From: Ruminiclostridium cellulolyticum H10
Lineage (GTDB): Bacteria > Bacillota > Clostridia > Acetivibrionales > DSM-1351
Direction of reading: 5' to 3'
Length of the DNA: 64,000 nucleotides
Assembly: GCF_000022065.1 (NCBI RefSeq)
Contig: NC_011898.1
Location: 1,076,001 to 1,140,000, forward strand
Part shown: piece by piece, positions 42,193 through 61,380 of the stretch
Layout: each line of letters begins with the position of its first letter
How positions within the stretch are numbered: the stretch's first letter is position 1
Position numbers and translations under genes: made by a program
Notes under the pieces: generated by a model
The model's input: only the letters and a program-made list of their open reading frames with translations
The model's database searches: none
What the model was told of the DNA's origin: nothing

Positions 42193-43074
42193 TCAGGAGT
42201 GTTTATGACATTCTAATACATATCTGGAGAAATCAAGTGCGGCCTGTGCTTCTCTATCCAGCATTTTCTCATCTGCACCGTTACTAATGTCACGCCAAAC
42301 CTTAATATTAGATCCGACAGTTCCGCCCATTCTAACAAAAGGTTCCATAACAACACTACCGTTATAACCTATGTCAGCAAGAGCCTCACCAATTTCTACC
42401 CATGGAATTCTTCCTCTGCCGGGAACTTTACGATTACATTCGCCAGTGTGTAAATGTCCCAAGTAAGAGCCCGCAGTCCTGATTGCACCTCCGATACTAT
42501 CTTCCTCAATATTCATATGGAAGGTATCAAGCATTACCTTTACATTGTTATGGTCAACCTGTTTTACAAAATCTACACCCTCTTGTGCTGTGTTAATTAA
42601 ATAATTCTCAAATCTATTAAGAACCTCTAGGCAGAAATCCACTCCACAGGCTTCGGCCACCTTAGCAACTTCTCGAACACTTTCAACGCTGCGTTCCCAA
42701 TCGCCTTTTTTATCAATTGTCTTTGTGTAATCTATCGGCCAATAAGAATATAAAGCCCCACCTATCAAATGTACATCCAGCTTGTAAAGTCGTTTGAGTA
42801 AATCGGTATAAAAAGCTTTAGCATTTTTGCGAATATCGGGGTCGGGAGAAGACAGGTTTTGTTCTGCACTAGGCCCATGGCCTACCGTAAGTGTAATTCC
42901 ATTGCCATGGGCACATGCCTTGAGCTCATTAATCTGAATGTCACTGTAAAAAGGTAGCGGTGAAGCTGCAATCTCTAGAATATCAAAACCAAGCTTTGCA
43001 ACCTTCTCAATATAGTATTTGTAATCAGCTTCCCATTCTTGTTCCCAATATGCGTAGTATATACCATGTTTCAT
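42193..43074 (-). CDS. D-psicose (D-allulose) 3-epimerase
   Basis: 293 residues, a TIM-barrel sugar epimerase. From memory it matches the characterised R. cellulolyticum H10 enzyme (DPEase) over its whole length. Metal ligands are Glu150 (CLEVLNRFEN), Asp183 (MLDTFHMNIEE), His209 (LGHLHTGECNR) and Glu244 (VVMEPFVRMGG). It interconverts D-psicose and D-fructose at C3, using Mn or Co. It has AAGGAGG before the ATG and is the distal gene of a minus-strand operon behind two FAD oxidoreductases. Its natural substrate in the cell is not established by the in-vitro activity. Confidence 0.97.
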   Translation of the reverse strand: MKHGIYYAYWEQEWEADYKYYIEKVAKLGFDILEIAASPLPFYSDIQINELKACAHGNGITLTVGHGPSAEQNLSSPDPDIRKNAKAFYTDLLKRLYKLDVHLIGGALYSYWPIDYTKTIDKKGDWERSVESVREVAKVAEACGVDFCLEVLNRFENYLINTAQEGVDFVKQVDHNNVKVMLDTFHMNIEEDSIGGAIRTAGSYLGHLHTGECNRKVPGRGRIPWVEIGEALADIGYNGSVVMEPFVRMGGTVGSNIKVWRDISNGADEKMLDREAQAALDFSRYVLECHKHS

Positions 43075-43106
43075 GTTAGTCCTCCTTAAAGGCAGAAAAA
43101 CTGATT

Positions 43107-44480
43107 TTATTCAGCAGGTTCCAGTATTACGTTGGAATTGCGAAGGATTTTACGAACTTCCTTTACATTCACCTGAGCGGGAAGGATATTGTGCTTAACT
43201 GCCAGTGCAGCACCTACACCGGCTCCCTCGCCTATAGCCATGCAGGTTGGCATAACCCTTGCTGAACTCATAACTACTGCATCCAGAGAAGCACATCTGC
43301 CGCTGAACATGAGATTGCCAATATCCTTGCTTACTGTACATCCGTATGGAATACCGTATGGCTTTATGCGCTTAACAATTGTACCTGCTCCTTTAGCTTC
43401 ATGTATATCAATTATGTAGGAACCTAGTGCCACAGTATCTTCCGGCACGTCGCCCACAATGATTCTGTCCTCTGTTAATTCGCAGATACCCTCGAAGCGA
43501 CGTGTTTCACGAATACCCATTGAAGGATATATCTGAGTTATATAGCAGTTTTCAAACCCGGGAACATGCTTTTTGAGGGTTTCCACCAGCTTAGGAATCT
43601 GTAAATGTCCCTCAATTTCTGAACGAGTCAAATCCAGCACATCACTGCCGTTGATTCCCAAATGCCTTGTAGAATTAATGTGCACCTCTCCAGGAATCAG
43701 ACTTTTAATGTAAATAAGGGTATCTCTATCAACAGGCAATTCGCCCTTTGCTTTAAGTTCAAGGAAAAGCTTACGAAGTCCAACCATTACATGGTATGGG
43801 TTAGAACGGAAAAAATCAGCGTTGTACTTGTCAAAGTCACATTCAATTGTATTACACAAACGCATCTGTTCAGGATCACTTGCGATAAATTCTATTGTTT
43901 TATCGGTATCAACGTTACCTAAAGTAAACATAAGAGTAGGCGGCTGTAACGCACCTGTGTCCTTTTGACCCATATTGTAGGTAGCACCAGCCATATAACC
44001 CATGTCACCATCTCCGCTAGCATCAATAAACACAGCAGCCTCAACCTCAATATGATAACCCTTCCCAAATAGCGTAACTGTTTTAATTTTACCATTCTCC
44101 ACATTGGTATCAATAATTTCTGTATGCAAGAGTATTTCTACGCCAGCATTGAGACACATTTCGAAAGCAACGACTTTAAAAATCTCATGGTCGTAAAGAG
44201 TTACAGAATTGTGCATAGGGCAGGGGTAATGATCTGTACAGGAATTACGTTTTTTGAGTTCATCAACAAGTTCTTGTGCAATACCAGCAGTTACGGGATT
44301 GCCGTCTTTGTCCAGATATCCTAACAACGGTAATCCTATTGTCAAATTACCACCGAGATATCCATTTTTCTCTACCAGAAGTACTTTTGCACCATTTCTG
44401 CTTGCCGCAATTGCTGCAGGGATGCCACCTGGGCCACCGCCAATGACAACTACATCATATTTTTTTTGGAGGGTTTTCAT
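43107..44480 (-). CDS. FAD-dependent oxidoreductase (PF12831), paralogue A
   Basis: 457 residues without signal peptide, so cytoplasmic. N-terminal FAD motif [18 protein letters not shown] with NGYLGGNL; then [54 protein letters not shown] and [14 protein letters not shown], ending [20 protein letters not shown]. These are the hallmarks of the FAD_oxidored family, which lacks well-defined substrates. The ATG at 44498 has no ribosome binding site; AAGGAG inside it directs initiation at 44480. It lies between paralogue B and the psicose epimerase in one operon. Confidence 0.9.
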
Positions 44481-44537
44481 AGTTTTGGTCTCCTTCATTT
44501 TATAGTTTTTATTTTAAATAATTGAAAATTATGGAAG

Positions 44538-45911
44538 TTAATCCTTAATAACAGCACCTTGCTCAATTAGAGTATTACGAAGCTTAACAATGTCCACATT
44601 CTCGGGACAAACACCACTTTTAAGTGCTATTGCAGCTGCTGTACCTGCCGCCTGACCCATGGCTACGCATGCAGGCATAACTCTAAAGCTTGCTGCGGCC
44701 TCTGAGGAACCGCATATACTGCGTCCTGCAACAAGCATATTGTCACAGTTCTCAGGAATCAGACATCGGTATGGTATGGTGTAGTATTTATCTACACAGG
44801 TAAAGGTGACACCGCCCCCGGTTGAATTGTGTATATCAATTGCATATCCAAAGGTACATATTGCATCATCAAAATGTTTGCGAGAGAGTATATCTTCTGC
44901 TGTTAGCTCGTATTTTCCTACAATGTGTCTGGTTTCACGAACTCCTAGTGCTGTAGCTACTTGGATAAGCTGAACATTCTCACAGCCAGGAAGGTATTTT
45001 TTCATAAATGCAATAACTTCCTGTACTTGACGTCTGCCTTCAATAAGTGCCTTAGTTATATCTGAAGTTTTGGTAGCATCAATATGTGCAATGCGAGTGG
45101 TATTTATTTTCCATCTTCCAAGTATATTCTGCTCATAGTTACCTAATTCGTTACGGTCAAGTGTCCAGTCACCGTTACGCTTAGCTTCTTCTACATACTT
45201 AGCAAAGCAATTGGCAACGTGGTTGTCTAAATTAGATTTATTAGCTTCAAGTTCCCCTAAATATTTCTCACGGTCAATATTACCAACTTCAAAGAAAAGG
45301 GAGGTAGGCTGCATAATGCCTGTTTCCTTGTTGCCAAGCCACGTAGGGACGCCTGCAAAATAGGCCACATCAGCATCACCGGTGCAATCTATGAATAGCT
45401 TTGCACGAATTGCTGCAATACCTTCCTTCATATTGACAATTACGTAATCTATTTTTTTATCCTTAGTGATGCAATCGGTAACCTGTACATTAAAGAGTAT
45501 TTGTGCACCTGATTCTAGAAGCATTTCTTCCATTACAACTGCAAGTACCTCCGACTGATATGGAGTAACATGTCTATGGCTTGCCATATAGTATGAAGAA
45601 AAAGAAGTCATACCTTCCACCTTAGATGGATGAATAGCACCACCACGGGCTTCGGTCCGAAGACAAAGTTCGTCGAAAATACCCTTAACTAATTGTTCTT
45701 CAGCATCATTATCATAGCAGGTCATAAATGGCCCCACCAGACCTGCTGTAGCCATACCGCCAATAATACTTAAGCGCTCAATCAGAAGTGTTTTCGCACC
45801 GTTACGTGCCGCTGCTATTGCCGCCCCGAAGCCTGCTGTACCGCCACCGATAACAAGTACATCTGTTTCTATTACGTTTTTAATGATTTTTGTGTATTGA
45901 ATTTCACTCAT
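44538..45911 (-). CDS. FAD-dependent oxidoreductase (PF12831), paralogue B
   Basis: 457 residues. VLVIGGGTAGFGAAIAAARNG with GGMATAGLVGPFMTCYDND, then DCTGDADVAYFAGVPTW, LGVRETRHIVGKYELTAEDIL, AIDIHNSTGGGVTF, PYRCLIPENCDNMLVAGRS and RVMPACVAMGQAAGTAAA. It is close in layout to paralogue C at 53898 (same length, same MSxxxYTK start and GPFMT segment), so B and C are probably a recent duplication split across the two arms of the locus. First gene of the minus-strand operon; CCAGGAGG precedes the ATG. Confidence 0.9.
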   Translation of the reverse strand: MSEIQYTKIIKNVIETDVLVIGGGTAGFGAAIAAARNGAKTLLIERLSIIGGMATAGLVGPFMTCYDNDAEEQLVKGIFDELCLRTEARGGAIHPSKVEGMTSFSSYYMASHRHVTPYQSEVLAVVMEEMLLESGAQILFNVQVTDCITKDKKIDYVIVNMKEGIAAIRAKLFIDCTGDADVAYFAGVPTWLGNKETGIMQPTSLFFEVGNIDREKYLGELEANKSNLDNHVANCFAKYVEEAKRNGDWTLDRNELGNYEQNILGRWKINTTRIAHIDATKTSDITKALIEGRRQVQEVIAFMKKYLPGCENVQLIQVATALGVRETRHIVGKYELTAEDILSRKHFDDAICTFGYAIDIHNSTGGGVTFTCVDKYYTIPYRCLIPENCDNMLVAGRSICGSSEAAASFRVMPACVAMGQAAGTAAAIALKSGVCPENVDIVKLRNTLIEQGAVIKD

Positions 45912-46426
45912 GGTATCCTCCTGGATATATTTTATGTTAACAAATTAAATTTCAATATATACTTTAGCGAAATTATTGTAAGAAAAAACTACTGTATTAG
46001 CATGGAGGATTTTAATTTATAAATTTATTTTCTTTAAATATAACATTAAATACTTTCAAGTCAACAGAACAGCAAAATGAGTAAAGGATAGTGATAGTTT
46101 TCAAATAAATAGAACATAACTTCTATATTTATCCCTGTATAAATTCTACAAAATATACCATTTTACGATTCAATATTTGATATTTCTACATATAAATATT
46201 GTTGGGAGATAATCTTTTGTGGTATACTATGACAAATAGATTCCCTAAAGAATTATTATAAATTCACAATTATATTCAGGTGTCTATACTATTTTTTATA
46301 AACAAATTAAGTTTCAAATCATCGCATTTATGTAAGTTAAACATGGTTTCTATGATAGATATCCAATTTCATGGCATAGGATTTATTATAATTTGAGCAT
46401 TAGATATTATCAGACGGGAGAAAATT
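45912..46426. other. Divergent regulatory region of the sugar locus
   Basis: 515 bp between the minus-strand epimerase operon and the YesN-type regulator. No gene is seen. It is very AT-rich and should contain both promoters and the regulator's sites. Two similar segments, AACAAATTAAATTTCAA at 45939 and AACAAATTAAGTTTCAA at 46301 (16 of 17 bases equal), are the best candidates for binding sites. Confidence 0.5.
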
Positions 46427-48046
46427 ATGTATAAAGCTATTATTGTTGATGATGAAGATTTGGTACGCCAAGGTTTAAAAAAACACTTTGATTGGAGCGA
46501 CCACAATATTGAGATAGTTGCCGATCTTTCCGATGGCCAGAAGGCATTTCAGTATGTGAAGGACAATCACGTTGATTTGGTCCTTACTGATGTCCTCATG
46601 CCTTATATGGATGGAATAACATTGGCAAAGAATTTACGAGAGCTTTATCCAGAGATAAAGATAATATTTATTAGTGGTCATGATGATGTAAGCTACCTAA
46701 AAAATGCACTTAAAGTCGAGGCTGTGGACTATATTCTTAAATCCATCGATTTAGACGAGCTTAAAGATACTGTTAGCCGAGTGGTAAATACTATGAATAC
46801 TGAGAATCAGAGTAAAAAAACCATGGCTGATATGGAAAATCTATTAAATCAGAGTTTTCCACTTTTACAAGAGCGTTTTTTTATCACAATGATCCGCGAT
46901 GATTTCGAAAATCCTGATATAATGAAAGAACGTATAGCATTTTTGAATATCCCACTCAATGATGAAATGTATTATTGTGTACTAGTAGTGCAAATACAGC
47001 GTATTTACAGCAAGTTTCATGTCTTAACGGAACGTGAGAGACAAATTCTTTCCCTTCAGATACAAAACGAATGTACAGAAGTTGGTAAACAGTATAGTGA
47101 TACCATTTGCTTTGAAAATAAACAAGGTGAATATGTTATGATATTGTCCTTATTAGAAGATGAATATGAAGAAACTCTCCTTGAAGTTTCCGAAAATCTT
47201 GACAAGCGTCTCAACGGTTATATGAATTTGCCAGTATCTATTGGTATAAGTGACAGATTTAAAGGGCTTGAAAATATAAAAGCATCTTATGAGAATGCAT
47301 CAAATTCCATAAGTAAACGGTATTTACTTGATGACGAACTGACCATTTCCGTTGATAAATACGAAATGGACGAAAGTCTCAAAGAATATAAGGAAAGAGC
47401 TAAAAAGAGTCTGCAAGAATGTTTAAGCTCTGGAAATACCGAACAGGTGTCTGAGGTACTCCGAGAGCTTTTCCATATAATAAGAGAAAAATTTCCAGAT
47501 GATGAAGAGCAGAATCTGATGATTTTTTTACTACTACTCCCAACACGCATAGTAACTGATATTAAAATAAATAAAAAAAGTGATTATTCCAACCAGCGAA
47601 TGATTTTAGAGAAATTTCTGTGCTGTGCGGATTTTGAAGAACAATGCCTTCTGATTCAAAAGCTCTATTTTGAGGTGGCAACCCTTATGAGCAGCATGAG
47701 CAAAACATATTCCCATACAATCATCAATCAGGTGCGAAAGACTATTGAGGAACGCTTTAAGGAACAGATATCAATAAGTACATTAGCAAGGGATGTTTAC
47801 TTAACACCCACATATTTATGCGTTTTGTTTAAACAAGTTACCGGAACTACAATAAATGATTATTTAACTCTGACTCGACTTGAGAAAGCAAAGAAGCTTT
47901 TATCAGATCCGTACATAAAACTGTATGATGTATGTTATGAGGTTGGCTATTTATCACCAAGCTATTTTTCCCGTTTATTTAAGAAATACACAGGAATCTC
48001 GCCTAGCGAATACAGGAATGTTGCAATAGCATCTTCCGAGCAATAA
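46427..48046 (+). CDS. YesN-type AraC response regulator
   Basis: 539 residues: receiver domain (IIVDDEDLVRQGL, phospho-acceptor Asp55 in LTDVLMPYMDG, ISGHDDVSYLKNAL, DYILKSID), a middle region of about 280 residues, and a C-terminal AraC DNA-binding domain (ISISTLARDVYLTPTYLCVLFKQVTG and VCYEVGYLSPSYFSRLFKKYTGISP). GGGAG precedes the ATG. It pairs with the kinase three bases downstream and very probably activates the ABC importer and flavoprotein genes on both sides. Confidence 0.94.
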   Translation: MYKAIIVDDEDLVRQGLKKHFDWSDHNIEIVADLSDGQKAFQYVKDNHVDLVLTDVLMPYMDGITLAKNLRELYPEIKIIFISGHDDVSYLKNALKVEAVDYILKSIDLDELKDTVSRVVNTMNTENQSKKTMADMENLLNQSFPLLQERFFITMIRDDFENPDIMKERIAFLNIPLNDEMYYCVLVVQIQRIYSKFHVLTERERQILSLQIQNECTEVGKQYSDTICFENKQGEYVMILSLLEDEYEETLLEVSENLDKRLNGYMNLPVSIGISDRFKGLENIKASYENASNSISKRYLLDDELTISVDKYEMDESLKEYKERAKKSLQECLSSGNTEQVSEVLRELFHIIREKFPDDEEQNLMIFLLLLPTRIVTDIKINKKSDYSNQRMILEKFLCCADFEEQCLLIQKLYFEVATLMSSMSKTYSHTIINQVRKTIEERFKEQISISTLARDVYLTPTYLCVLFKQVTGTTINDYLTLTRLEKAKKLLSDPYIKLYDVCYEVGYLSPSYFSRLFKKYTGISPSEYRNVAIASSEQ

Positions 48047-48085
48047 CATTTGCATAATAAATCGGTGTGTAGAAAGGGAATATCT

Positions 48086-49888
48086 ATGAATCGAATTAAG
48101 TTACGCGAGAAAATTTCCAAACGGATTATATATAGTGATAATATGCGTCTATCAAAACGAGCAATAGCTCTTTTTGCTTTTAGTGTAGTTATACCGCTCA
48201 CAATTATTGTATATTTGTATTCCATTCATTCTGCAAATATTATCGAGAATGAGCTTTCAAACAATATGCAATTGGCGGTCAGTCAAATAAAAAACAATTT
48301 AGATTACCGTTTTGAACAGATTTCTGAGAGTGCACTTTCAATTCTTAGCACAGCCTATCCTTACATTAGAAGTGGCAGTACTAGTGTTGAAACTCAGTTA
48401 AAAGAATATGATGAACTGAAATCTCTGGTTTCAGCATATGAAGGAAAACATATGATAAGTAAAGTGCGTCTATATGTGCCTTCTGGTAAAATTTATGCAA
48501 ATCAGCAGGAAACATTTTATTCTTTGCCGGAACTTACAGATCAATCCAGAGAAACATACCAAAGGGGGGTTATTTGGCTCAAAACCTATGGCTCACGTAT
48601 TTATGAGGGAAGAGGTTTAACTAATATTATATCCTGCCGTATGACTATTTCCAGTAAAACCAATTATGATGAGATCGCAAGTATACTACAATTAGATATA
48701 GAAGAGACCAAGCTTAGCAGAATATTTTCAGCGGGTATAAGCATTGATGAGGAAATTTACCTGGTAGATTCAGACGGAGTTATAATTTCACACCCCGATT
48801 CAGCCCTAATTGGTAAAAACGGTCTGTCCAATACCGAGCTCAGTACTGTATTGCTGAAGAAAACGGGACATTTGAGCGGAAATATGAGTCAAAACGCAGA
48901 TCTTGTGGCATTTTCAAAATTGAGTGCAACGGACTGGTACCTTGTTATGAGACTGCCTGCAACTGCCGTTTACGGCTCTGATGTTTTTTCATTTGACGTT
49001 ATGCGTGCTCTTCTGATTATTGCTGTTGTTGTGGTTTTTGTTATCTCATTAATTTTGATATATTCCAGTATTATAGAAAACACCATAAAACGGATAAATA
49101 ATGCTATCATGGTACTTAACAATGAAGGTATTGATCAAGTTGATAGCACCCTTTCAAAGAATAATAACAAATCACTTGCATTATTAGAGAATAACGCTAA
49201 CCAATTGGTTGTTACTATCAAGAGGTTAATGGAAGAATCATATGAAGCTAAATTGAAAGCACGTGATTATCAGTTAAAAGCTTTGCAGGCACAAATAAAT
49301 CCTCATTTTCTGTACAACACTTTAGATTCCATAAAATGGATGATATTAGAGGATCATAAGAAAGACAGTATATGGATGATTAATGCATTTTCAAAATATT
49401 TCCGCCTCAGCTTAAGCAAAGGCAGAGATGTTGTTACTCTTCATGATGAATTGGAGCTGATTCAGGCCTATATTGGAATTATGCAAAAAAGGTTTAGTAA
49501 TATTTCTACTATAGATATTAATATAGAAGATAATCTAAAGGAGTGTCTTATTCCTAAATTATCACTGCAACCATTAGTTGAAAATGCACTTAACCATGGT
49601 ATTCTGCACAAACAAGCCAGCGACGGTCAGCTTGTTATTACAGCAAAAGAGGAAAATGGTAAATTGGAAATCATTATTAAGGATAATGGTAAGGGAATGA
49701 GCCTGGAGCAACTAGAAAGACTCTTAAACGAAGAAAATAGTAACACAAAGGGTTATGGCCTTGGTAATGTAGATGAAAGACTCAAGCTATTTGGAGGGGA
49801 TGATTGTGGACTCACAGTAAGCTCCGAGTTAAATATAGGTACAACCGTTACCCTTTCGTTGCCCTTGAGGTACATGGACCAGGAATGA
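48086..49888 (+). CDS. YesM-type sensor histidine kinase
   Basis: About 600 residues. Membrane helix near 28-50 (ALFAFSVVIPLTIIVYLY), an extracytoplasmic dCache-like domain to about residue 300, a second helix (RALLIIAVVVVFVISLILIY), then the His_kinase domain (QAQINPHFLYNTLDSIKW) and HATPase (PLVENALNHGI, DNGKGM, GYGLGNVDERLKL). It senses an extracellular ligand, probably a sugar, and phosphorylates the YesN partner. An upstream TTG at 48050 is in frame, but GAAAGGGA selects the ATG at 48086. Confidence 0.92.
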   Translation: MNRIKLREKISKRIIYSDNMRLSKRAIALFAFSVVIPLTIIVYLYSIHSANIIENELSNNMQLAVSQIKNNLDYRFEQISESALSILSTAYPYIRSGSTSVETQLKEYDELKSLVSAYEGKHMISKVRLYVPSGKIYANQQETFYSLPELTDQSRETYQRGVIWLKTYGSRIYEGRGLTNIISCRMTISSKTNYDEIASILQLDIEETKLSRIFSAGISIDEEIYLVDSDGVIISHPDSALIGKNGLSNTELSTVLLKKTGHLSGNMSQNADLVAFSKLSATDWYLVMRLPATAVYGSDVFSFDVMRALLIIAVVVVFVISLILIYSSIIENTIKRINNAIMVLNNEGIDQVDSTLSKNNNKSLALLENNANQLVVTIKRLMEESYEAKLKARDYQLKALQAQINPHFLYNTLDSIKWMILEDHKKDSIWMINAFSKYFRLSLSKGRDVVTLHDELELIQAYIGIMQKRFSNISTIDINIEDNLKECLIPKLSLQPLVENALNHGILHKQASDGQLVITAKEENGKLEIIIKDNGKGMSLEQLERLLNEENSNTKGYGLGNVDERLKLFGGDDCGLTVSSELNIGTTVTLSLPLRYMDQE

Positions 49889-49949
49889 ATATAAAGTAAA
49901 TAACTCTATGAGGATAGTAATATTTATAGCTACTGTGAAACAGAGAAAA

Positions 49950-50017
49950 GAGCATAGGGACTGTTAGAATAGTATATATGTGGTTTATTCTACCAATCTC
50001 TATGTTCTATATTTTTA
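49950..50017 (+). terminator. Long hairpin after the two-component genes
   Basis: A 23-bp stem with two mismatches and some G-U pairs runs from AGAGCATAGGGA to CTCTATGTTCT and is followed by ATATTTTT. It separates the regulator genes from the ABC importer. Confidence 0.7.
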
Positions 50018-51230: not shown

Positions 51231-51265
51231 TGAACTGAAAGTATATCTTGTTAGAGGTGAAAACT

Positions 51266-52162: not shown

Positions 52163-52232
52163 CCAAACTTTAATTTATTTCACATGTAGTTTATCGGGAA
52201 ACCGATAAAAATAAAAAGGAGGAAGGGAAAAT

Positions 52233-53810
52233 ATGAAGAAGATTTTTGTATTATTTCTTGCGGTTTTGATGATTGTATCTAGCTTAGCAGCTTGTGGACA
52301 GAGCAGTAATTCCACTCCAAGTAACACCTCAACAGCAGGTACAGCAACTGGGGCGAAAGCTTTGGATGGCGAAAAGCCGGAACTCAAGTATCTTGGCTAT
52401 AACGTCAGCTTTGATCCTAACACTGACGGCATGGCAAAAATCTATGAAGAAAAAACAGGTTACAAAGTAAAGTACAACGTACTTCCCGCTGAAAATGCAG
52501 ATGAAAAGCTCCTTATGGAAGTTGCATCCGGTGCTGATTATGATGTAATTCAGGTGAGTGTATCTCAGTTCCAAACGCTTCTCTCACAAGGTGCTTTAAA
52601 GCCTCTTTCAGATTTGCTTGATAAGTATGGTCAGGATGTCCTAAAAGGTGTAAATGAAGATTCCTGGAAGGCTTGTTCAGGTTCGGATGGCAAAATCTAT
52701 GGTATTCCTTATAAATATCCATACCCGACTGAAATAACAACGTTCATGGTGGCAAGAATGGACTTGATGAAAGCAGCTGGTATTAATGAACTACCAAAAA
52801 CAATAGACGAATTCTACAACACCCTTGTTACTCTTAAAAAGTTTTATGGAGATAAATACATAATCTTCACTGGCCCGTTCCGTGCTGCCTCAGAAGCTTC
52901 AGTTAACTGGGATATCCCGCAAAGTATAACTTCTGCATTTGGTATCTACAATGACTGGATGGTTGATGAAAACGGTAAAGTCTACTACATGACTGAACAT
53001 AAGAATTTCTCAAAAATGATTGAATTCATGCAAAAACTATCAAAAGAGGGACTTATAGATCGTGATTGGGCGGTTAACAACACAACCACGGTTAATGAGA
53101 AATTATCTGCAGGAAAAGCAATAATAGCAGCTTCAAATCGTGTCGGTGTTGCTGTTACTACTCCAATCATGACAGGTAAAGATGGTTTGGGCCTTAAAAA
53201 CGAAGATCTTGGCTACATAGGTGCACTGGCAGGTTCTGACGGCACTTGCAAATATATGAAGACTGAAGCAATTAATCAGGTAACCTGTATACTGAAAAGC
53301 TCCAAGAATGCTGAGCATGTTATCAACTGGGTTAACGTTAAACAGCAAAATCAGCTTTACTTGAATATCGGTGTTGAAGGTACACACTTCACCTATGATG
53401 CTGATGGATCCATAAAACCGATTAATCCTATCTTTTCAGAGGAACGTGGTAATTCATACTGGTATCTTAACAGTACTAATGAGGAAGAGTTTGCAAAACA
53501 GTGGCCTTCCCGTGTTAGAAAGAGTGATGCTATGTGGGCTGCATTCGATGCAGTTACCAACAAAGCAAACAAAGATACACCAGATATTTTTGTAGATAAT
53601 ACTTTTGCATTCATGCCTTCATTGGAGAATTACTCCAAATATAATCAGTCATTATTTAAAGCTACCAGCGACTTCATTCTCCAGTTGATTGGTGGAACTA
53701 AGAAAATTGATGACCTCAAAACCTTCCAGTCAGACTGGACAAATAGTGGAGGCGAGAAGATAAAAACAGAAATGCAGAATTGGTATGACGACTTCTATGG
53801 TAAAAAGTAA
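52233..53810 (+). CDS. Extracellular sugar-binding lipoprotein (LplA/YtcQ type)
   Basis: 525 residues. Lipoprotein signal with lipobox LAAC (Cys near residue 21), then an NST-rich linker and a large type I sugar-binding fold (KPELKYLGYNVSFDPN, EEKTGYKVKYNVLP, SGADYDVIQVSVSQF). The size fits the LplA/YtcQ group that feeds permeases of the LplB/LplC type. AAAGGAGGAAGGG precedes the ATG. It ends 20 bp before a strong hairpin, which could raise its mRNA level relative to the enzymes behind it. Confidence 0.93.
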   Translation: MKKIFVLFLAVLMIVSSLAACGQSSNSTPSNTSTAGTATGAKALDGEKPELKYLGYNVSFDPNTDGMAKIYEEKTGYKVKYNVLPAENADEKLLMEVASGADYDVIQVSVSQFQTLLSQGALKPLSDLLDKYGQDVLKGVNEDSWKACSGSDGKIYGIPYKYPYPTEITTFMVARMDLMKAAGINELPKTIDEFYNTLVTLKKFYGDKYIIFTGPFRAASEASVNWDIPQSITSAFGIYNDWMVDENGKVYYMTEHKNFSKMIEFMQKLSKEGLIDRDWAVNNTTTVNEKLSAGKAIIAASNRVGVAVTTPIMTGKDGLGLKNEDLGYIGALAGSDGTCKYMKTEAINQVTCILKSSKNAEHVINWVNVKQQNQLYLNIGVEGTHFTYDADGSIKPINPIFSEERGNSYWYLNSTNEEEFAKQWPSRVRKSDAMWAAFDAVTNKANKDTPDIFVDNTFAFMPSLENYSKYNQSLFKATSDFILQLIGGTKKIDDLKTFQSDWTNSGGEKIKTEMQNWYDDFYGKK

Positions 53811-53830
53811 ATATATCAGCTAGTGTATTT

Positions 53831-53861
53831 TTTGTAGCAGTCCCAGTGGGGCTGCTACAAA
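53831..53861 (+). other. Intercistronic hairpin after the binding protein
   Basis: TTTGTAGCAG / CTGCTACAAA is a perfect 10-bp stem with an 11-nt loop. It has no T-run on the plus strand, so it is more likely a 3' stabiliser or partial terminator inside the operon than a full terminator. Confidence 0.6.
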
Positions 53862-53897
53862 ACTAAATAAACGAATTATAGAATAAGGAGAAAGAGC

Positions 53898-55271
53898 ATG
53901 AGCAAAGTAAACTATACAAAAGAACTTCCTGTTTATCGTGATATAGATATCCTTGTTGTTGGTGCAGGCCCAGCGGGTATCGGAGCTGCTATATGTGCAG
54001 CAAGAAACGGTGCAAAGACACTAGTGATTGATGACACCGGCTGTGTGGGAGGACAGGCTACCAACGGTCTGGTAGGCCCTTTTATGACTGTATATGATGC
54101 AAAGAGTGAAAAACAGATTATAAAAGGTATCTTTGAAGAAATAGTAAATCGCATGGTTGAAATGGGTGGTGCCATTCAGCCCAGTGAAGTGAGATCCAGA
54201 ACGTCTCGTGCAGGTTTCTATAAAATTGGTCATGACCATGTAGGACCCTTTGATCACGAGGCTTTAAAATTGGTTGCTTCAGACATGATTATTGAAGCTG
54301 GTGCAGAACTACTCTTACACACCCAGTTTATAGATGTACTAAAAGAGGATGATAAGATTGTTGGTGTGGTGATTGCGAACAAGTCGGGAATTTCCGTCAT
54401 ACGTGCAAAAATTATAATCGACTGTTCAGGTGATGCAGATGTGGCAGCGAGGTCCGGCGTAAAATATGAACTAGGTAACGTAAATGATGGCAACATACAG
54501 CCGGCGACTATGTTTTTCCGAGTTTGCAATGTTGATTCAGAAAGATTGAAGGCACATATTAAGGAGCATGAGGAGGAAATCCGTCCTTTCTATGGACCAT
54601 TCAGCTGGCTGATTAAGGAAAAACAAGAGGAATGGGGAGATGTTCCTCGTGCAGAGGTGTGTCTTTTTGAAAGTCCCGAACCCGGCGAATATCGTTTAAA
54701 CGTAACCCGTATTTTAGATATTGACGGGACGAATGCCGAGGATCTGACCAAGGCTGAATTAATCGGTATGAAGCAGGTACATAAAGTATTCAATTTTATG
54801 AAGAAATACGCAGTTGGTTTTGAGAATGCAAAGTTTATGGGTACAGCTGCCAGAATAGGAATTCGTGAAACCCGTCATATTGAAGGTCTGTACAAGCTGA
54901 CGGCAGACGATGTTTTAAATTGCCGAGTACCTGAAAACTCCATAGCCGTTCTGGCAACCAATATGGATACTCACAATAAGAGCGACCCGGGTGGAACATA
55001 TTATACCTTAGAAAAAGGCCCTTACTTTGGTGTACCGTACACTTGCCTGGTACCAAAGGGTGTAAGTAATCTCTTTGTAGCAGGGCGTTCACTCTCAGCT
55101 GATGCGATAGCCGGTTCGGCTACCCGTATGATACCTTGCTGTATTGTATTCGGGCAGGCAGCCGGAACTGCAGCAGCAATAGCTGTTAAGGAAGGTAGGC
55201 TCCCGGCTGATATTGATGTAGACGAGCTCCGTGCAACATTGAAAGAGCAAGGTGCATTTTTAGGTGACTAA
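53898..55271 (+). CDS. FAD-dependent oxidoreductase (PF12831), paralogue C
   Basis: 457 residues, cytoplasmic. ILVVGAGPAGIGAAICAARNG with GGQATNGLVGPFMTVYDAK, DCSGDADVAARSGVKYELG, GIRETRHIEGLYKLTADDVL, NKSDPGGTYYTLEKG, PYTCLVPKGVSNLFVAGRS and RMIPCCIVFGQAAGTAAAIA. Nearest in design to paralogue B. ATAAGGAG precedes the ATG. It is first of three consecutive flavoprotein genes downstream of the importer. The substrate is unknown; the FAD part is complete. Confidence 0.9.
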   Translation: MSKVNYTKELPVYRDIDILVVGAGPAGIGAAICAARNGAKTLVIDDTGCVGGQATNGLVGPFMTVYDAKSEKQIIKGIFEEIVNRMVEMGGAIQPSEVRSRTSRAGFYKIGHDHVGPFDHEALKLVASDMIIEAGAELLLHTQFIDVLKEDDKIVGVVIANKSGISVIRAKIIIDCSGDADVAARSGVKYELGNVNDGNIQPATMFFRVCNVDSERLKAHIKEHEEEIRPFYGPFSWLIKEKQEEWGDVPRAEVCLFESPEPGEYRLNVTRILDIDGTNAEDLTKAELIGMKQVHKVFNFMKKYAVGFENAKFMGTAARIGIRETRHIEGLYKLTADDVLNCRVPENSIAVLATNMDTHNKSDPGGTYYTLEKGPYFGVPYTCLVPKGVSNLFVAGRSLSADAIAGSATRMIPCCIVFGQAAGTAAAIAVKEGRLPADIDVDELRATLKEQGAFLGD

Positions 55272-55298
55272 TGATTATTAACTTTGGAGGATACAGGC

Positions 55299-56606
55299 AT
55301 GAGTTTTGAATCAGTATCATATCAGAAATCTTTGGAGGTAGCAGCCCATTATGATGTTGTTGTCATAGGCTCCGGCCCTGCCGGCATTTGTGCAGCTGTT
55401 TCAGCGGCTCGAATGGGGGCTAAAACTGCATTAATTGAGCGTTATGGTACCCTTGGTGGTAATTTGACAAATGGTGCTGTTGCACCAATTCTCGGAAGTG
55501 TATCGAGAGGAACATTACGAGATGAGCTTATTGTACGTCTTGGTGTTCCGGACAGCGACGAAACAGGTGTAACTCAACAAACTCACGACTTTGAAAAAGC
55601 AAAGCGCGTGCTTGTAGATTTTGCACATGAAGCAGGTGTTAAGATTTATTTACAAACCCCCGTTGTTGATACGATAACAGATGGAAAAAGGCTTACAGGT
55701 ATTGTCATTTCTCAAAAAACGGGTATGAAGGTAATCAGGGCAAAATCCTTTATTGATGCTTCCGGTGACGGTGATGTTGCATACTTTGCAGGTGCAGAAT
55801 ATGAAATGGGACGCGAAGGAGATTCCTTGCTACAACCTGTTACTTTGATGTTCCGCTTGCAGGGCGTTGAGGATGATGCACTAACTTGTATAGGTGAGCT
55901 TGACCACGTTACTTACAAAGGTGAAAGATTCCTTGATTATACAACCAGACTTTGCAACGAAGGCCATTTACCGCCTAATGCGGCATCGGTACGTTCATTC
56001 CGCACTTCTGTTCCCGGTGAACGTGTTATCAACACTACGCAGACAAATGGTATTTCTGCATTGTTAAGTGATGATTTGGAAAAGGCTGAGGTTGACCTAC
56101 GTGCCCAGATTGATGCTGTAACTGATTTTCTGCGAAAGTATGTTGATGGTTATCAGAATTGTTTTGTAAAGAGTACGGCAAATACTCTGGGAGTTCGTGA
56201 GACTCGCCGTTTTATTGGACAATATATGCTTCAGGACTTAGATCTTCGTACAGGAAGAAGATTTGAAGATGTTGTTGTTCACAAGGCAAGCTTTATAGTG
56301 GACATTCATAATCCAGCAGGTAGTGCACAGGCTGAAGGAGTACCTGAGGAGGTAATTCCTTATGATATTCCTTTGCGCAGTTTGATTCCAAAGAGCTTGG
56401 ATGGTTTAGTTCTTGCTGGAAGATGTATTTCGGGTACGCACCGAGCACATGCTTCTTATCGAGTTATGTCAATCTGTATGGCGATAGGTGAAGCGGCGGG
56501 TATAACTGCTGTACTAGCAGCACAAAAGGATATATCACCTCGTGAAGTTGATTTCAAAGATGTACAGAAAGTTTTGAGTGAACGGGGAGTTGAGCTTTTC
56601 GATTGA
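55299..56606 (+). CDS. FAD-dependent oxidoreductase (PF12831), paralogue D
   Basis: 435 residues. VVVIGSGPAGICAAVSAARMG with ERYGTLGGNLTNGAVAPILG, DASGDGDVAYFAGAEYEMG, LGVRETRRFIGQYMLQDLDLRTG, VDIHNPAGSAQ, IPLRSLIPKSLDGLVLAGR and RVMSICMAIGEAAGITA. A GRRFED insertion where B, C and E have LN makes it the most divergent in that loop. An in-frame TTG at 55284 exists, but TTGGAGG selects the ATG at 55299. 27 bp separate it from paralogue C. Confidence 0.9.
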   Translation: MSFESVSYQKSLEVAAHYDVVVIGSGPAGICAAVSAARMGAKTALIERYGTLGGNLTNGAVAPILGSVSRGTLRDELIVRLGVPDSDETGVTQQTHDFEKAKRVLVDFAHEAGVKIYLQTPVVDTITDGKRLTGIVISQKTGMKVIRAKSFIDASGDGDVAYFAGAEYEMGREGDSLLQPVTLMFRLQGVEDDALTCIGELDHVTYKGERFLDYTTRLCNEGHLPPNAASVRSFRTSVPGERVINTTQTNGISALLSDDLEKAEVDLRAQIDAVTDFLRKYVDGYQNCFVKSTANTLGVRETRRFIGQYMLQDLDLRTGRRFEDVVVHKASFIVDIHNPAGSAQAEGVPEEVIPYDIPLRSLIPKSLDGLVLAGRCISGTHRAHASYRVMSICMAIGEAAGITAVLAAQKDISPREVDFKDVQKVLSERGVELFD

Positions 56607-56663
56607 CTTATCTCTTTAGCTAAAAGTTTAGCCATATAGTTATTGGCACTGTAAGGAGGATTT

Positions 56664-57962
56664 ATGTTTATTATAGAAAGAGAAAAAAGAGTACCAGTAA
56701 TAGATAGCTACGACGTAATTGTATGTGGAGGAGGACCTTCCGGTATTATTGCAGCAATTGCTGCAGCCAGGAACGGTGCAAACACACTATTGATTGAGCG
56801 TTATGGATTTGTAGGAGGAATGGCGTCTAGTGCCCTCGTAACCCCTATCAGTATATTCAAGAAAAAGAAAAAGCTAATTATTGATGGAATCCCTTTCGAG
56901 CTTATGAAGCGGATAAGTGCTCTTAATGGGGCTGATATTTCCCTTGATAGCGGAAATGTTCCTGTAGACGATGAGGTATTCAAACTGGCTGCTCAGCAAT
57001 TACTTCTTGAAAGCGGTGTTACGCTGCTATATCATACATATTTTTCAGATTGTGTTATGACAGATGGAAAGGTTAGTCATATAATTGTACAGAACAAAGC
57101 TGGACAGGTAGCATATGAATGCAAGGCAGCCATTGACTGTACAGGTGATGCAGACCTGGTTCGGGCAGCCGGATTTGAGACTACCAAGGAAACCACGCTT
57201 CAGCCTGCATCTCTGTGGTTTCAACTCGGCGGTGTAGATACTGATGCACTCAAAGATTTATTCGTTGATGCTGTTGATGAAAAAATGCCTATCAGTTCTG
57301 AAATACGGGGAAGATTGAGTGAGCTTAACCAAAAAGGTGAGATGCCAATTTTCGGCGGGCCTTGGATAAGCAAGCATTTTCGGGATGGTATTGTTACCAT
57401 TAATTTGTTGCGTGAAAGCACTGATGCAAGCTCTCCCGAACAATTTACAAGGACTGAATGCAGTTTGCGGGAAAATCTGTTCAAAGTGATAAATATTATG
57501 CGGGAGAATTTTCCCGCCTTCAAAAATTGTTGGCTTTTAAAATCGGGAACACAGACTGGCGTACGAGAAACCTACCGTATTGTCGGAATGTATAAGATGA
57601 CAGCAGACGATGTACTCAATCCCAAGCAGTTTAAGGACACTATTGCAAAGGGAACTCACGTAATAGATATTCATAAGCCAGATAGTATTGAACAGGACTG
57701 CATTAGTTTAAAACAAGAATACAATATACCTTATGGTGTCCTCGTCCCTGTAAACAGTAAGAACCTGATTACTGCCGGACGCTGCGTATGTGCTGATAAC
57801 TCTGCTTTTGGTTCAATCCGGGTTATGGCAACCTGTATGGCAATGGGGCAGGCAGCAGGTACGGCTGCATCTATTTATTTGCAAAAGAATTGTTCTATGG
57901 ATACAATGGATACTGAGCTGTTGGTGAAAAAGCTGATAGAGCAGGGTGCTATTATTTGTTAA
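56664..57962 (+). CDS. FAD-dependent oxidoreductase (PF12831), paralogue E
   Basis: 432 residues. VIVCGGGPSGIIAAIAAARNG with ERYGFVGGMASSALVTPIS, DCTGDADLVRAAGFE, GVRETYRIVGMYKMTADDVL, GTHVIDIHKPDS, NIPYGVLVPVNSKNLITAGR and RVMATCMAMGQAAGTAAS. TAAGGAGG precedes the ATG. It lies 46 bp before the first zinc dehydrogenase. As with its paralogues the FAD site is intact and no partner subunit is obvious. Confidence 0.9.
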   Translation: MFIIEREKRVPVIDSYDVIVCGGGPSGIIAAIAAARNGANTLLIERYGFVGGMASSALVTPISIFKKKKKLIIDGIPFELMKRISALNGADISLDSGNVPVDDEVFKLAAQQLLLESGVTLLYHTYFSDCVMTDGKVSHIIVQNKAGQVAYECKAAIDCTGDADLVRAAGFETTKETTLQPASLWFQLGGVDTDALKDLFVDAVDEKMPISSEIRGRLSELNQKGEMPIFGGPWISKHFRDGIVTINLLRESTDASSPEQFTRTECSLRENLFKVINIMRENFPAFKNCWLLKSGTQTGVRETYRIVGMYKMTADDVLNPKQFKDTIAKGTHVIDIHKPDSIEQDCISLKQEYNIPYGVLVPVNSKNLITAGRCVCADNSAFGSIRVMATCMAMGQAAGTAASIYLQKNCSMDTMDTELLVKKLIEQGAIIC

Positions 57963-58008
57963 CATAAAACAGTTTATTAATTGTTCTGTAATGGAAAGGA
58001 GATGCACA

Positions 58009-59088
58009 ATGAGTATTATACCAAAAACAATGAAAGCTTTAGTAGCCTACGGAAAAGGGGATTACCGTTTTGAAACAAATTATCCTACACCGCAATGTGG
58101 GGCAGATGATATTATCATCAAAACAGAAGGCTGCGGTGTTTGTGCAAGTGATTTGAAGTGCCAACAAGGAGCAGCTATGTATTGGGGTGGTGATAATCAA
58201 CCAGCATGGGTAGAGCCACCATTTATTCCGGGACATGAATTTTTAGGTCGTATAGTTGAAGTAGGTGAAAACGTAAGGGATTTTCATGTAGGGGAAAGAG
58301 TAATAGCAGATCAGATTGTTCCATGCGGACAGTGCAAATTCTGCAAGACAGGTAGATATTGGATGTGCCAACCTCATGCAATATTCGGTTTCCAAAAAGG
58401 TAACAATGGTGGTATGGCTGAATATGTAAGATTCCCTAAAGCCTGTGTTATTTCTAAAGTACCAGAAGATATTCCTCTGAGTGCTGCTCTTTTGATTGAG
58501 CCTTATGGATGTTCCAAACATGCAGTAGACAGAGCACAAATTCGTAATGATGATATTGTAGTTATTTCCGGTGCAGGAACTCTTGGTCTCGGTATGATAA
58601 CATATGCAAGAATGCAAAATCCTAAAAAACTAATAGTACTTGATATGATTGATGTTCGTCTGGAAAAAGCAAAAGAATTTGGTGCAGATATAGTTTGGAA
58701 CCCATCAAAGGTTAATGTAGTGGAAGAAATTATGAAACTGACAGATGGTTATGGTTGTGATATTTATATCGAAGCTACAGGACATCCATCAAGCGTTATT
58801 CAAGGGCTTAACATGATAAGAAAATTAGGACGCTTTGTAGAATTCAGTGTATTTGCAGAACCAACTACGGTAGACTGGTCAATTATCGGTGACAGAAAGG
58901 AATTGGATATTCTCGGTTCCCATTTAAGCCCGTATTGCTACCCATTTGTAATTGAAAATATAAGAAACGGTAATTTAAAAACAAATGGACTTGTTTCAAA
59001 AACCTTTTCAATTGAAGATTGGGAAACAGCCTTTGAATATGCTTCTGGAAAATATGGTGATTTTAAAGTTGCAATTACCTTTGGATAA
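58009..59088 (+). CDS. Zinc-dependent MDR dehydrogenase (polyol type), first
   Basis: 359 residues. Catalytic zinc ligands appear in CGVCASDLK, PGHEFLGRIVEVG and the IEPYGCSKHA segment; the structural zinc site is CGQCKFCKTGRYWMC. The Rossmann fold has ISGAGTLGLGMITYA. The insertion MYWGGDNQPAWVEPP before PGHEF is like that of erythritol/L-threitol dehydrogenases as I recall them. An in-frame upstream start at 57946 overlaps paralogue E, but GAAAGGAG selects the ATG at 58009. It probably oxidises a sugar alcohol with NAD. Confidence 0.88.
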   Translation: MSIIPKTMKALVAYGKGDYRFETNYPTPQCGADDIIIKTEGCGVCASDLKCQQGAAMYWGGDNQPAWVEPPFIPGHEFLGRIVEVGENVRDFHVGERVIADQIVPCGQCKFCKTGRYWMCQPHAIFGFQKGNNGGMAEYVRFPKACVISKVPEDIPLSAALLIEPYGCSKHAVDRAQIRNDDIVVISGAGTLGLGMITYARMQNPKKLIVLDMIDVRLEKAKEFGADIVWNPSKVNVVEEIMKLTDGYGCDIYIEATGHPSSVIQGLNMIRKLGRFVEFSVFAEPTTVDWSIIGDRKELDILGSHLSPYCYPFVIENIRNGNLKTNGLVSKTFSIEDWETAFEYASGKYGDFKVAITFG

Positions 59089-59105
59089 AAAAGGAGGATT
59101 ATATT

Positions 59106-60116
59106 GTGAAAGCTTTCTTTATTGAAAAACCCAATTCGGGTATAGTACGAGATTCTGAAATACCTGTTCCTGCTGATGACGAGATATTGCTTGAGGTTAA
59201 GGCAGCAGGTGTTTGTGGTACTGACGTTCATATATATAAGGGTGAATATTTTGGGAGCTATCCAAGAATTCCGGGTCATGAATTCTCCGGTATTATAACA
59301 GATATTGGGAAAAAAGTTACTAAGTTCAAGATTGGGCAACGTGTTGCAGCAGATCCGAACATTTTCTGTGAGACATGTGATGCCTGTAAGGAAAATCGGC
59401 AGAACTTCTGCTCAGATATGGAAGTCGTGGGTGTTACAAGACATGGTGCCTTTGCTCAGTATCTAACTGTACCGGAGCGTTGTGTATTTGATGTTTCAGG
59501 ACTAACCTTTACTGAGGCCTCAATGGTAGAACCGTTAGCATGTGTGGTTTATGGACAAGAAAAGGCTGGTATACCATTAGGAGCTTCGGTGCTTATATTT
59601 GGTGCAGGACCAATAGGACTTATGCATTCTCAGCTCGCTGCTATAAATGGTGCGGCAAGTGTTACCGTTGTTGATCTCTTTGAGGATAAGCTTGCTTTAG
59701 CAAAAAAACTCGGAGCAGACCATACCTACACATCAGCAGAGTTTGAAAAGCTTGGATTGGTTAATTCCTTTGAAGTTGTTATTGATTGTACTGGTGTACC
59801 AAAAGTTATAGAGGGCGAAATAAAATATGTAAAGGACTCGGGCACAATACTTTTCTTCGGTGTATGTCCTGATAATAGTCAAATTACAATAAATCCTTAT
59901 GAAGTGTTTAAGCGTGAACTAAAGATTTGTGGGAGCTTTGCACTCAAAAAAACCTTTGGCAAAGCAGTTGCGTTTGCCAAAAGTGGTAAAATTAATTTGA
60001 TAGACCTTGTAGATAAGAAGCTTTTATTGGATGATGCACCAAAACTTTTTGAGGACATTGTAGCTGGCAATTCAGGACTTAAAACTATTTTTTACCCTAA
60101 CGGAATTGAAATATAA
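59106..60116 (+). CDS. Zinc-dependent MDR dehydrogenase (sorbitol type), second
   Basis: 336 residues. CGTDVHIYKGEYFGSYP, PGHEFSGIITDIG, structural zinc site CETCDACKENRQNFC, and Rossmann IFGAGPIGLMHSQLAA. Close in design to sorbitol, arabinitol and threonine dehydrogenase-type enzymes. It starts at a GTG behind AAAGGAGG, 17 bp after the first dehydrogenase, and precedes the PfkB kinase. Likely converts a polyol to a ketose or the reverse. Confidence 0.9.
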   Translation: MKAFFIEKPNSGIVRDSEIPVPADDEILLEVKAAGVCGTDVHIYKGEYFGSYPRIPGHEFSGIITDIGKKVTKFKIGQRVAADPNIFCETCDACKENRQNFCSDMEVVGVTRHGAFAQYLTVPERCVFDVSGLTFTEASMVEPLACVVYGQEKAGIPLGASVLIFGAGPIGLMHSQLAAINGAASVTVVDLFEDKLALAKKLGADHTYTSAEFEKLGLVNSFEVVIDCTGVPKVIEGEIKYVKDSGTILFFGVCPDNSQITINPYEVFKRELKICGSFALKKTFGKAVAFAKSGKINLIDLVDKKLLLDDAPKLFEDIVAGNSGLKTIFYPNGIEI

Positions 60117-60221
60117 TCTAGTGGAACATATTATATATTACATGCAATAATGACAAAGCCCTGTGAAATTTCATCGGTATATTCTAATAAATTATAATAA
60201 TTAGTGAAAGTTGGGTGAATT

Positions 60222-61187
60222 ATGATTGACGTTGTAGCTCTTGGGGAGCTTCTTATAGATTTTACACAGATTCGTTCCAACGATGATTCAGTCAGACGCT
60301 TTGAACAGAATCCGGGTGGGGCTCCGGCTAATGTATTAGCAGTATTATCCAAGTTTGGAGTAAAATGTGCTTTTATTGGTAAGGTAGGAAACGATGTGTT
60401 TGGAGAGTTTTTAAGGAAACAGCTTTTAGACCTTTCAATTGATTGTAGAAATCTTGTTTCAGATCCAAACCATAATACAACCTTGGCGTTTGTTACCTTA
60501 GACGATAAGGGGGATAGAAGCTTTAGCTTTTATAGAAATCATGGTGCTGATACCTGTCTTTCAGAAGAGGAAATTAATTTAGAACTTATTAAGAATAGTA
60601 AGGTATTCCATTTTGGAACATTGTCAATGACTCATGAGCCTTCGCTTTCCGCAACATTAAAAGCAGTTGAATATGCTAAGTCATGTGGGAAAGTAATTTC
60701 CTTTGACCCAAATTACAGAGCACTCTTATGGGATAATGTGGACAATGCAATATCAGCAATGAAATCCGGGCTAGAGTATGCTAATATTGCCAAGCTTTCT
60801 CTTGAGGAAGCACAAATGGTTACAGGAAAAACATTGCCTGAAGACTGCTTGAGAGAACTCCTGAAATATGATCTTGGCATTGTAGCTATAACAATGGGCC
60901 CTCAAGGCTGTGTTTACGCTACGGATAAGTACATGGGTTCTTTCCCGGAGTATCCGGCTAATGTTGTGGATACAACGGGGGCTGGAGATACTTTTTGGGG
61001 AACCCTTATATTTGGATTTTTAAATAACGGTGCGGATTTTGATGGGATTTCAGAAGAAAGGCTTTCTGAAATTGTACTAATGGCAAATATAGCTGCTGCA
61101 ATGAGTACCGAGAAAAAAGGTGCAATACCTTCAATCCCGGATTTTGCAAGAGTCAGGGCAGCTTTTGAAGAAATTAATGGCAAGTAA
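60222..61187 (+). CDS. PfkB family carbohydrate kinase (fructokinase-like)
   Basis: 321 residues. N-terminal ALGELLIDFTQI, NPGGAPANVLAVLSKFG, GKVGNDVFGEFL; C-terminal DTTGAGDTFWGTLIFGFL with catalytic Asp. This is the pattern of bacterial fructokinases (ScrK group) and related ketose kinases. It would commit the product ketose, for example fructose made from psicose, to glycolysis. Last gene of the arm, followed by a terminator. Confidence 0.92.
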   Translation: MIDVVALGELLIDFTQIRSNDDSVRRFEQNPGGAPANVLAVLSKFGVKCAFIGKVGNDVFGEFLRKQLLDLSIDCRNLVSDPNHNTTLAFVTLDDKGDRSFSFYRNHGADTCLSEEEINLELIKNSKVFHFGTLSMTHEPSLSATLKAVEYAKSCGKVISFDPNYRALLWDNVDNAISAMKSGLEYANIAKLSLEEAQMVTGKTLPEDCLRELLKYDLGIVAITMGPQGCVYATDKYMGSFPEYPANVVDTTGAGDTFWGTLIFGFLNNGADFDGISEERLSEIVLMANIAAAMSTEKKGAIPSIPDFARVRAAFEEINGK

Positions 61188-61298: not shown

Positions 61299-61380
61299 AC
61301 TTTATAGCTCAGAAGTGACATACCTATTATGGATTATATAGAAAAAATGGTATATAATGTATTGTGTGGGGGTGTTTCTA

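Follow-up and report, generated by a model that had tools for sequence, protein, structure and literature searches.

A carbohydrate locus of Ruminiclostridium cellulolyticum H10 in which five PF12831 flavoproteins may feed an exchangeable ketose arm

In the C-glycoside deglycosidase systems, DgpA with DgpB/C, the substrate is oxidised to a 3-keto glycoside before it is cleaved. A similar oxidise-then-cleave logic could apply to the locus described here, which occupies positions 42193 to 61187 of the analysed window, a 64,000-nucleotide stretch of the genome of the cellulose degrader Ruminiclostridium cellulolyticum H10, although no Gfo/Idh/MocA gene was matched in it. Gene calls from Pfam and NCBIfam profile searches and translated frames gave a minus-strand arm encoding an epimerase (E) and two flavoproteins (F1 and F2), and a plus-strand arm encoding a response regulator (RR), a histidine kinase (HK), two permeases (P1 and P2), a sugar-binding protein (SBP), three further flavoproteins (F3, F4 and F5), two dehydrogenases (D1 and D2) and a kinase (K). 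Every component that a sequence-only reading had listed for these positions (a YesM/YesN pair, an importer, an epimerase, five flavoproteins, two dehydrogenases and a kinase) was present. The described system closest in logic is the Escherichia coli ycj cluster (YcjN-YcjV, PMC11543891), in which an importer for sugar is likewise accompanied by two sugar dehydrogenases and an epimerase/isomerase. It differs in having phosphorylases and, in the part of that paper available to us, no named PF12831 flavoprotein, whereas E of H10 is a free-ketose 3-epimerase; with neither a phosphorylase nor a Gfo/Idh match in the H10 locus, a pathway of the ycj type was not recognised. Within R. cellulolyticum itself, the two-component genes of the cua cluster also adjoin those for an importer and a cytosolic enzyme but, according to the accessible part of PMC5663094, this cluster handles cellobiose through a GH94 phosphorylase and has an extra binding protein thought to serve in sensing. 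The myo-inositol (iol) clusters have a PF01261 protein, dehydrogenases and a PfkB kinase in common with the H10 locus, and one homolog locus of that kind carries a PF12831 protein, but the H10 locus differs in lacking a match to a thiamine pyrophosphate (TPP) enzyme or to KduI/IolB. The literature search that was made did not find the locus in print, and we regard it as a locus for sugar catabolism whose set of enzymes is undescribed.

The reading that we prefer, and to which we give about an even chance, is that of a single carbohydrate-catabolic locus in which oxidation of sugar hydroxyls by the flavoproteins feeds an exchangeable ketose arm. The flavoproteins are F1 (463 amino acids (aa); 43107 to 44498, minus strand), F2 (457 aa; 44538 to 45911, minus strand), F3 (457 aa; 53898 to 55271, plus strand), F4 (440 aa from a TTG start, with an in-frame ATG at 55299; 55284 to 56606, plus strand) and F5 (432 aa; 56664 to 57962, plus strand). 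All five belong to PF12831, with E-values of 1.4e-117, 7.4e-129, 6e-124, 1.4e-120 and 2.2e-113, respectively; they scored 380-431 bits against a cut-off of 27, covered profile positions 1-416 and are 31-43% identical to one another in pairwise comparisons. Six of the 13 PF12831 matches in the H10 genome extend over nearly the full length, and all but one of these six are F1-F5. In an alignment of the family, ten polar residues (E81, E121, Q201, N268, R323, E324, D357, H359, R397 and R410 in F3 numbering) were near-invariant, being kept in 34-36 of 36 rows, and because all ten are present in each of F1-F5 none of the five looks degenerate. No signal peptide was evident by eye in any of them, and they were therefore taken to be cytosolic.

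A tree of 76 PF12831 proteins was built by a quick method without bootstrap from 89 collected sequences of 380-520 aa, after removal of 13 near-duplicates from loci L012 and L045-L048. F1, F2, F3, F4 and F5 each fell into a clade of its own, together with rows of the Ruminiclostridium and Thermoclostridium types, with support of 99-100 in the Shimodaira-Hasegawa-like approximate likelihood ratio test (SH-aLRT). The branches leading to these clades are long (0.35-1.2 changes per site), and the outer placement of F1 and F5, which lie near long branches of other rows, is unsure, as the tree program warned. Judged from this tree, F1-F5 are five old clades that have remained together in both lineages. 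Recent tandem duplication as the source of the five genes was ruled out, each being an old separate clade.

The sequence-only reading had also remarked that the flavoproteins fit no known pathway, and this was borne out. A literature search found no assigned reaction for PF12831, a term that, among the papers searched, occurs only in a survey of the Brucella flavoproteome, and sequence, fold and profile searches gave, among the matches listed, no solved relative extending beyond the flavin adenine dinucleotide (FAD) domain. A profile of 36 family members matched 287 sequences in the Protein Data Bank (PDB), and in the best 60 of these 287 the match was to the N-terminal FAD part. An AlphaFold2 model of F3 (predicted local distance difference test score (pLDDT) 84.5; predicted template-modelling score (pTM) 0.90) gave query-normalised TM-scores below 0.5 for all of the best 50 PDB matches, so that the resemblance appears to rest mostly on the FAD domain. 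First among the matches listed was the geranylgeranyl-reductase-like 3oz2, and monooxygenases and fumarate reductases were also found. Such matches would suit flavoproteins that act on sugars as ene-reductases, like fumarate or geranylgeranyl reductase, and reduce the C=C bonds of unsaturated or dehydrated forms, but with scores this low and no lyase match in the locus we consider that activity quite improbable.

The locus was found in four of the 11 genomes of the genus that were searched, H10, R. papyrosolvens (G021), G022 and R. hungatei (G018), in the common order E F1 F2 / RR HK P1 P2 SBP F3 F4 F5 D1 D2 K, and in each of them E and F1 are neighbours on the same strand. A further dehydrogenase gene (D3, sorbitol-dehydrogenase-like and matching the sorbitol dehydrogenase 1pl6) is inserted between D2 and K in the two sister genomes G021 and G022, and the R. 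hungatei locus has an extra FGGY kinase gene and a short sixth flavoprotein gene. The product of the latter (L014, 16999 to 18009) is shortened and F4-like. In a Thermoclostridium-like genome (G283) one side has the order F2 F1 D3 E and the other the order D1 RR HK P1 P2 SBP F3 F4 SDR FGGY F5, SDR denoting a short-chain dehydrogenase/reductase. Identities between H10 and G283 are 71-85% for F1-F5, 78% for D1, 80-84% for the permeases, 78% for SBP, 63-64% for RR and HK, and 54.5% for E. Parts of this second type of locus occur in four more genomes: in G399, a UlaE-like epimerase stands at the position of the G283 FGGY kinase and no intact SBP was found by reading-frame search; in G128 and G178, where the contigs stop, the E end only is present; and in T. 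caenicola (G101), the C-terminal parts of F1 and SBP adjoin head to head (L104, 11834 to 13247), and the locus looks decayed, as after one deletion.

E (293 aa, Ccel_0941; 42193 to 43074, minus strand) is identical over its 293 aa to the solved D-psicose (allulose) 3-epimerase of H10 (PDB 3vnk/3vni), and is thus that same protein; it scored 475 bits against the NCBIfam equivalog model for D-psicose 3-epimerase (NF051856), for which the cut-off is 300. Residues E150, D183, H209 and E244, which we take to be those of the metal site and the catalytic centre, are present in H10 E and kept in 12 other copies compared. Ccel_0941 is given as the gene encoding D-psicose 3-epimerase in PMC8576529, citing Mu 2011; in the part of that paper available to us the enzyme alone is named, and the surrounding flavoproteins, importer and two-component genes are not mentioned. 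A literature search with 12 locus tags, those of the neighbours being guessed by counting from Ccel_0941, found Ccel_0941 as the sole tag in print among the papers searched.

A second locus in G021 and G022 encodes another E (59% identical), D3-like and K-like proteins, a CUT1-type importer, a two-component system and, from divergently oriented genes, two long PF12831 proteins of 594 and 639 aa (L205, L206). Beside this second epimerase locus, L205 also encodes a protein that weakly resembles glucose/sorbosone dehydrogenases (34.7 bits, cut-off 25). In a tree of 23 epimerases, with groups defined by locus type after the identities had been seen, the main E copies of Ruminiclostridium grouped with those of G389 and G230, which have no flavoprotein in the stretches read there. 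Placing the main Ruminiclostridium copies in one clade with those of the Thermoclostridium type was rejected (log-likelihood 43 worse; approximately unbiased test, p-AU 2.2e-5), as was a single clade of main and second-locus E (p-AU 2.7e-5). For D3 the same Ruminiclostridium/Thermoclostridium-type pairing was rejected at p 0.0094, and the D3 proteins of the second locus and of the Thermoclostridium-type locus grouped together. These trees suggest that on two or more occasions an epimerase/dehydrogenase pair came to lie with PF12831 genes, whether it joined them separately or replaced an earlier pair, and that the epimerase is an exchangeable downstream step with a different origin in each lineage.

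The surroundings of 24 of 38 epimerase matches, the window included, were read by BLAST against F1-F5, some of the stretches being short. Ten of these loci are of the types described above and have PF12831 genes, one (L103) is cut by a contig end, and in the stretches read none of the remaining 13, all outside these locus types, has a PF12831 gene. An epimerase match is present in all seven genomes whose F4 is at least 78% identical, compared to 32 of 391 genomes overall, the seven representing only two lineages. The 13 epimerase loci without a flavoprotein, a genus-mate (G024) with flavoproteins and without an epimerase, and the finding of no promoter motif common to both arms would all be expected if two unrelated functions, a free-ketose arm (E and K) and a separate flavoprotein pathway, lay side by side. 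This we hold to be improbable, as E lies directly beside F1 in every one of the four Ruminiclostridium genomes with the locus and as E from separate sources is found with PF12831 genes. The claim of the sequence-only reading that both arms form one locus is upheld by a gene set conserved in several genomes and by epimerase/dehydrogenase modules that came to PF12831 genes from separate sources. Its description of the locus as built around the psicose epimerase was not supported, given the G024 core, the different origins of E in the two lineages and the 13 other epimerase loci; as organising gene the epimerase was rejected, since the flavoproteins persist where it has a different origin or is missing.

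To see how far the family is linked to sugars, 42 homolog loci outside this locus type, chosen among the top-scoring matches to F3, F4 and F2 and including short contigs and several loci per genome, were compared with 20 control regions placed at round coordinates in four genomes. A CUT1-type permease was present in 15/42 homolog loci and in 2/20 controls (Fisher one-sided p 0.03, the loci not being independent), and two or more PF12831 genes in 8/42 and 0/20, respectively. F3 homologs adjoin GH3 genes in L178 (GH3 by scan), L179 and L181 (both by eye), Fe-ADH_2 genes lie near PF12831 members in L152, L171 and L173, one PF12831 member in L152 carries a fused F5/8 type C domain, and homologs of F1 (51%) and D1 (70%) adjoin each other in L218. 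Genome-wide counts of F1 and F4 homologs are lower bounds, at most four candidates per genome having been scored: F4-like proteins at E 1e-70 or better occur in at least 32 of 391 genomes of the class, and F1 matches at E 1e-75 in at least 13 of 398 genomes of the phylum.

D1 (57946 to 59088, plus strand, with an in-frame ATG at about 58009) and D2 (59106 to 60116, plus strand) are zinc-dependent medium-chain dehydrogenases (PF08240 and PF00107). The label polyol-type given to them at first was not supported, as polyol or sorbitol dehydrogenases are the closest solved relatives of neither: D1 is L-threonine-3-dehydrogenase-like (nearest solved chains 2d8a and 2dfv) and the chain nearest to D2 is the unassigned zinc dehydrogenase 4ej6. 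Among other families both resemble scyllo-inosose 3-dehydrogenase, and an F4 homolog (L159) lies in an inositol-type run with genes for CUT1-type permeases, Gfo/Idh, TIM-barrel, TPP and KduI/IolB proteins, as would fit catabolism of cyclitols or cyclitol glycosides in which the flavoproteins oxidise inositol-like rings. However, D1 and D2 scored 181 and 196 bits with the NCBIfam scyllo-inosose 3-dehydrogenase model, far under its cut-off of 450, the H10 locus has no match to the TPP-enzyme, KduI/IolB or Gfo/Idh genes of that run, and its epimerase and kinase point to ketoses, so that a cyclitol pathway is very improbable. K (60222 to 61187, plus strand) is a PfkB kinase (PF00294, E 3e-58) whose nearest solved chains are fructokinases; with 206 bits against the NCBIfam fructokinase equivalog, where the cut-off is 450, it may be called fructokinase-like and is not assigned as a fructokinase.

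For the preferred reading, a locus in which flavoproteins feed a ketose arm, we infer the substrate class, the action of the flavoproteins on sugar hydroxyls, the order of the reactions and the electron flow as follows. The YesM/YesN-type pair would sense, and the CUT1-type importer would take up, a small glycoside, an oligosaccharide or a polyol-bearing sugar. In the cytosol the PF12831 flavoproteins, differing in the position or stereochemistry on which they act, would use FAD to oxidise or re-reduce particular hydroxyls, giving keto-sugar intermediates, and the zinc dehydrogenases would perform NAD-linked redox steps. The freed ketose would be turned at C3 by the psicose epimerase, after which phosphorylation by the fructokinase-like kinase would let it enter glycolysis. 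Other lineages might carry out this final part with a sorbitol-dehydrogenase-like enzyme and an epimerase that has a different origin, and with an SDR together with an FGGY kinase or a UlaE-like epimerase. Tentatively, and while regarding it as rather unlikely, we also put forward a wider pathway of anaerobes in which divergent PF12831 sets serve as flavin-dependent epimerases or glycosidases, oxidising sugar hydroxyls to keto-sugars and reducing them again, so that they replace glycoside hydrolases, and in which an exchangeable module of ketose epimerase and kinase receives their product.

Flavoproteins of PF12831 are found repeatedly in Bacillota, yet the searches found no reaction assigned to them, and a locus where five distinct members are linked with an importer and with an enzyme of known biochemistry is a practical place to learn the role of the family, the more so as genes have been inactivated in R. 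cellulolyticum (PMC8576529). The locus may also supply the natural substrate and pathway of the allulose epimerase, and the chemistry of the flavoproteins could be a new way of processing unusual sugars.

Several findings weigh against the proposed pathway. Among the 42 homolog loci, 27 show no CUT1-type permease, and BLAST against this locus found epimerase-like genes in four, kinase-like genes in two and dehydrogenase-like genes in two (0/20 controls in each case). Hydantoinase A genes, and membrane protein genes too, adjoin PF12831 members in L218, L221, L228 and L174, an F1 and D1 pair is accompanied by hydantoinase A in G665, and transporters of the TRAP or tricarboxylate type were seen by eye beside some members. 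The test proposed in the sequence-only reading, whether the same flavoproteins occur mostly in unrelated contexts, had a divided outcome: rows of the F1-F5 clades come, among the fetched sequences, only from loci of this kind, whereas the wider family is often found away from CUT1 permeases and in some cases beside hydantoinase genes. G024 encodes F2/F3-like (51%), F4 (58%), F5 (50%), D2 (89%) and K (72%) proteins, but its importer is a different one, with permeases that are 23-26% identical and another SBP, and a search for an epimerase found none, either beside the flavoprotein core or genome-wide at E 1e-60. The low identity of E between H10 and G283 does not by itself single out E, RR and HK being low as well. 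H10 has no close D3, the best hit being 33% identical, that would link its flavoproteins to the ketose. The best cross matches between the promoter regions of the two arms were no better than those of shuffles, 59, 47, 46 and 18 of 60 shuffles reaching the observed match at lengths 12, 16, 20 and 24. Finally, profile scans matched no gene for a flavin re-oxidation partner or electron carrier within the locus.

The same scans matched no separate NAD(P)H domain in the PF12831 proteins of the locus, and so, with no electron carrier matched either, the flavin would have to be used in a redox-neutral way or be served by a partner protein from elsewhere. Electrons would then pass to the substrate or to another protein, as in a redox-neutral cleavage of glycosides in which a ring hydroxyl, such as that at C3, is temporarily oxidised by the flavoproteins, the aglycone is eliminated and the electrons are returned. 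NAD-dependent glycosidases and 3-keto glycoside pathways would be the counterparts of such a flavin-dependent cleavage. The locus has no glycoside hydrolase match despite its importer, for which one SBP_bac_1 and two BPD_transp_1 genes are consecutive, as in ATP-binding cassette (ABC) importers of the CUT1 type. P1 (50208 to 51230, plus strand; likely start at ATG 50262, downstream of GGAGG) and P2 (51248 to 52162, plus strand; one of 13 matches in the H10 genome) are CUT1-type permeases (PF00528), SBP (525 aa; 52233 to 53810, plus strand; PF01547, E 3.7e-18) is a lipoprotein with an LAAC lipobox recognised by eye, and profile scans matched no ATPase gene for the importer among the genes of the locus. 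The solved chains nearest to SBP, 5ysb, 5xs8 and 5gub, are weak matches that cover the N-terminal part; their ligands are presumably of the oligosaccharide type. A predicted model of SBP had a pLDDT of 37.5, having been built from six sequences 76-96% identical to the query. Redox-neutral cleavage would also agree with the 8/42 homolog loci (0/20 controls) that have at least two PF12831 proteins, but the lack of a Gfo/Idh/MocA match in the locus speaks against it, and we judge it unlikely.

The two-component genes sit between the two arms. RR (46427 to 48046, plus strand) is a YesN-like response regulator with receiver, GGDEF_2-like and AraC helix-turn-helix domains (PF00072, PF17853 and PF12833), and HK (48050 to 49888, plus strand, with an in-frame ATG at 48086) is a YesM-like sensor kinase with PF06580 and PF02518, PF02743 being under its cut-off. 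A comparable pair of R. cellulolyticum, CuaS/CuaR, has been linked to the adjacent importer in the accessible part of PMC5663094, and eleven two-component loci flanked by genes for carbohydrate-active enzymes (CAZymes) and transporters are reported for this organism in the part of PMC3656788 available to us, where the present locus does not figure. A term search of the latter transcriptome paper, covering 12 of 15 places, gave no Ccel_094x tag, the sole Ccel_09 hit being Ccel_0920. When the four Ruminiclostridium genomes were aligned, long conserved blocks were seen both in the region between F2 and RR and in the other intergenic region. Two copies of the repeat ACAAATTAA(A/G)TTTCA lie between F2 and RR in H10, the second being poorly conserved in two of the three other genomes.

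Rfam gave nothing at gathering score within the window. Just outside the locus, an IS110-family transposase (38950 to 40124, minus strand) is split over two frames, with PF01548 and PF02371 parts. In the same genome, a second sugar locus, L207 (G000:C1:1270000-1289900), has genes for a CUT1-type importer, a DeoC-type aldolase, two zinc dehydrogenases, an FGGY kinase and an arabinose-isomerase-like protein. Adjoining the locus, positions 61357 to 63094 (plus strand) contain an AgrB gene, a short open stretch and a gene for a membrane protein without a Pfam match, and agr-type peptide signalling is possible there beside the sugar locus.

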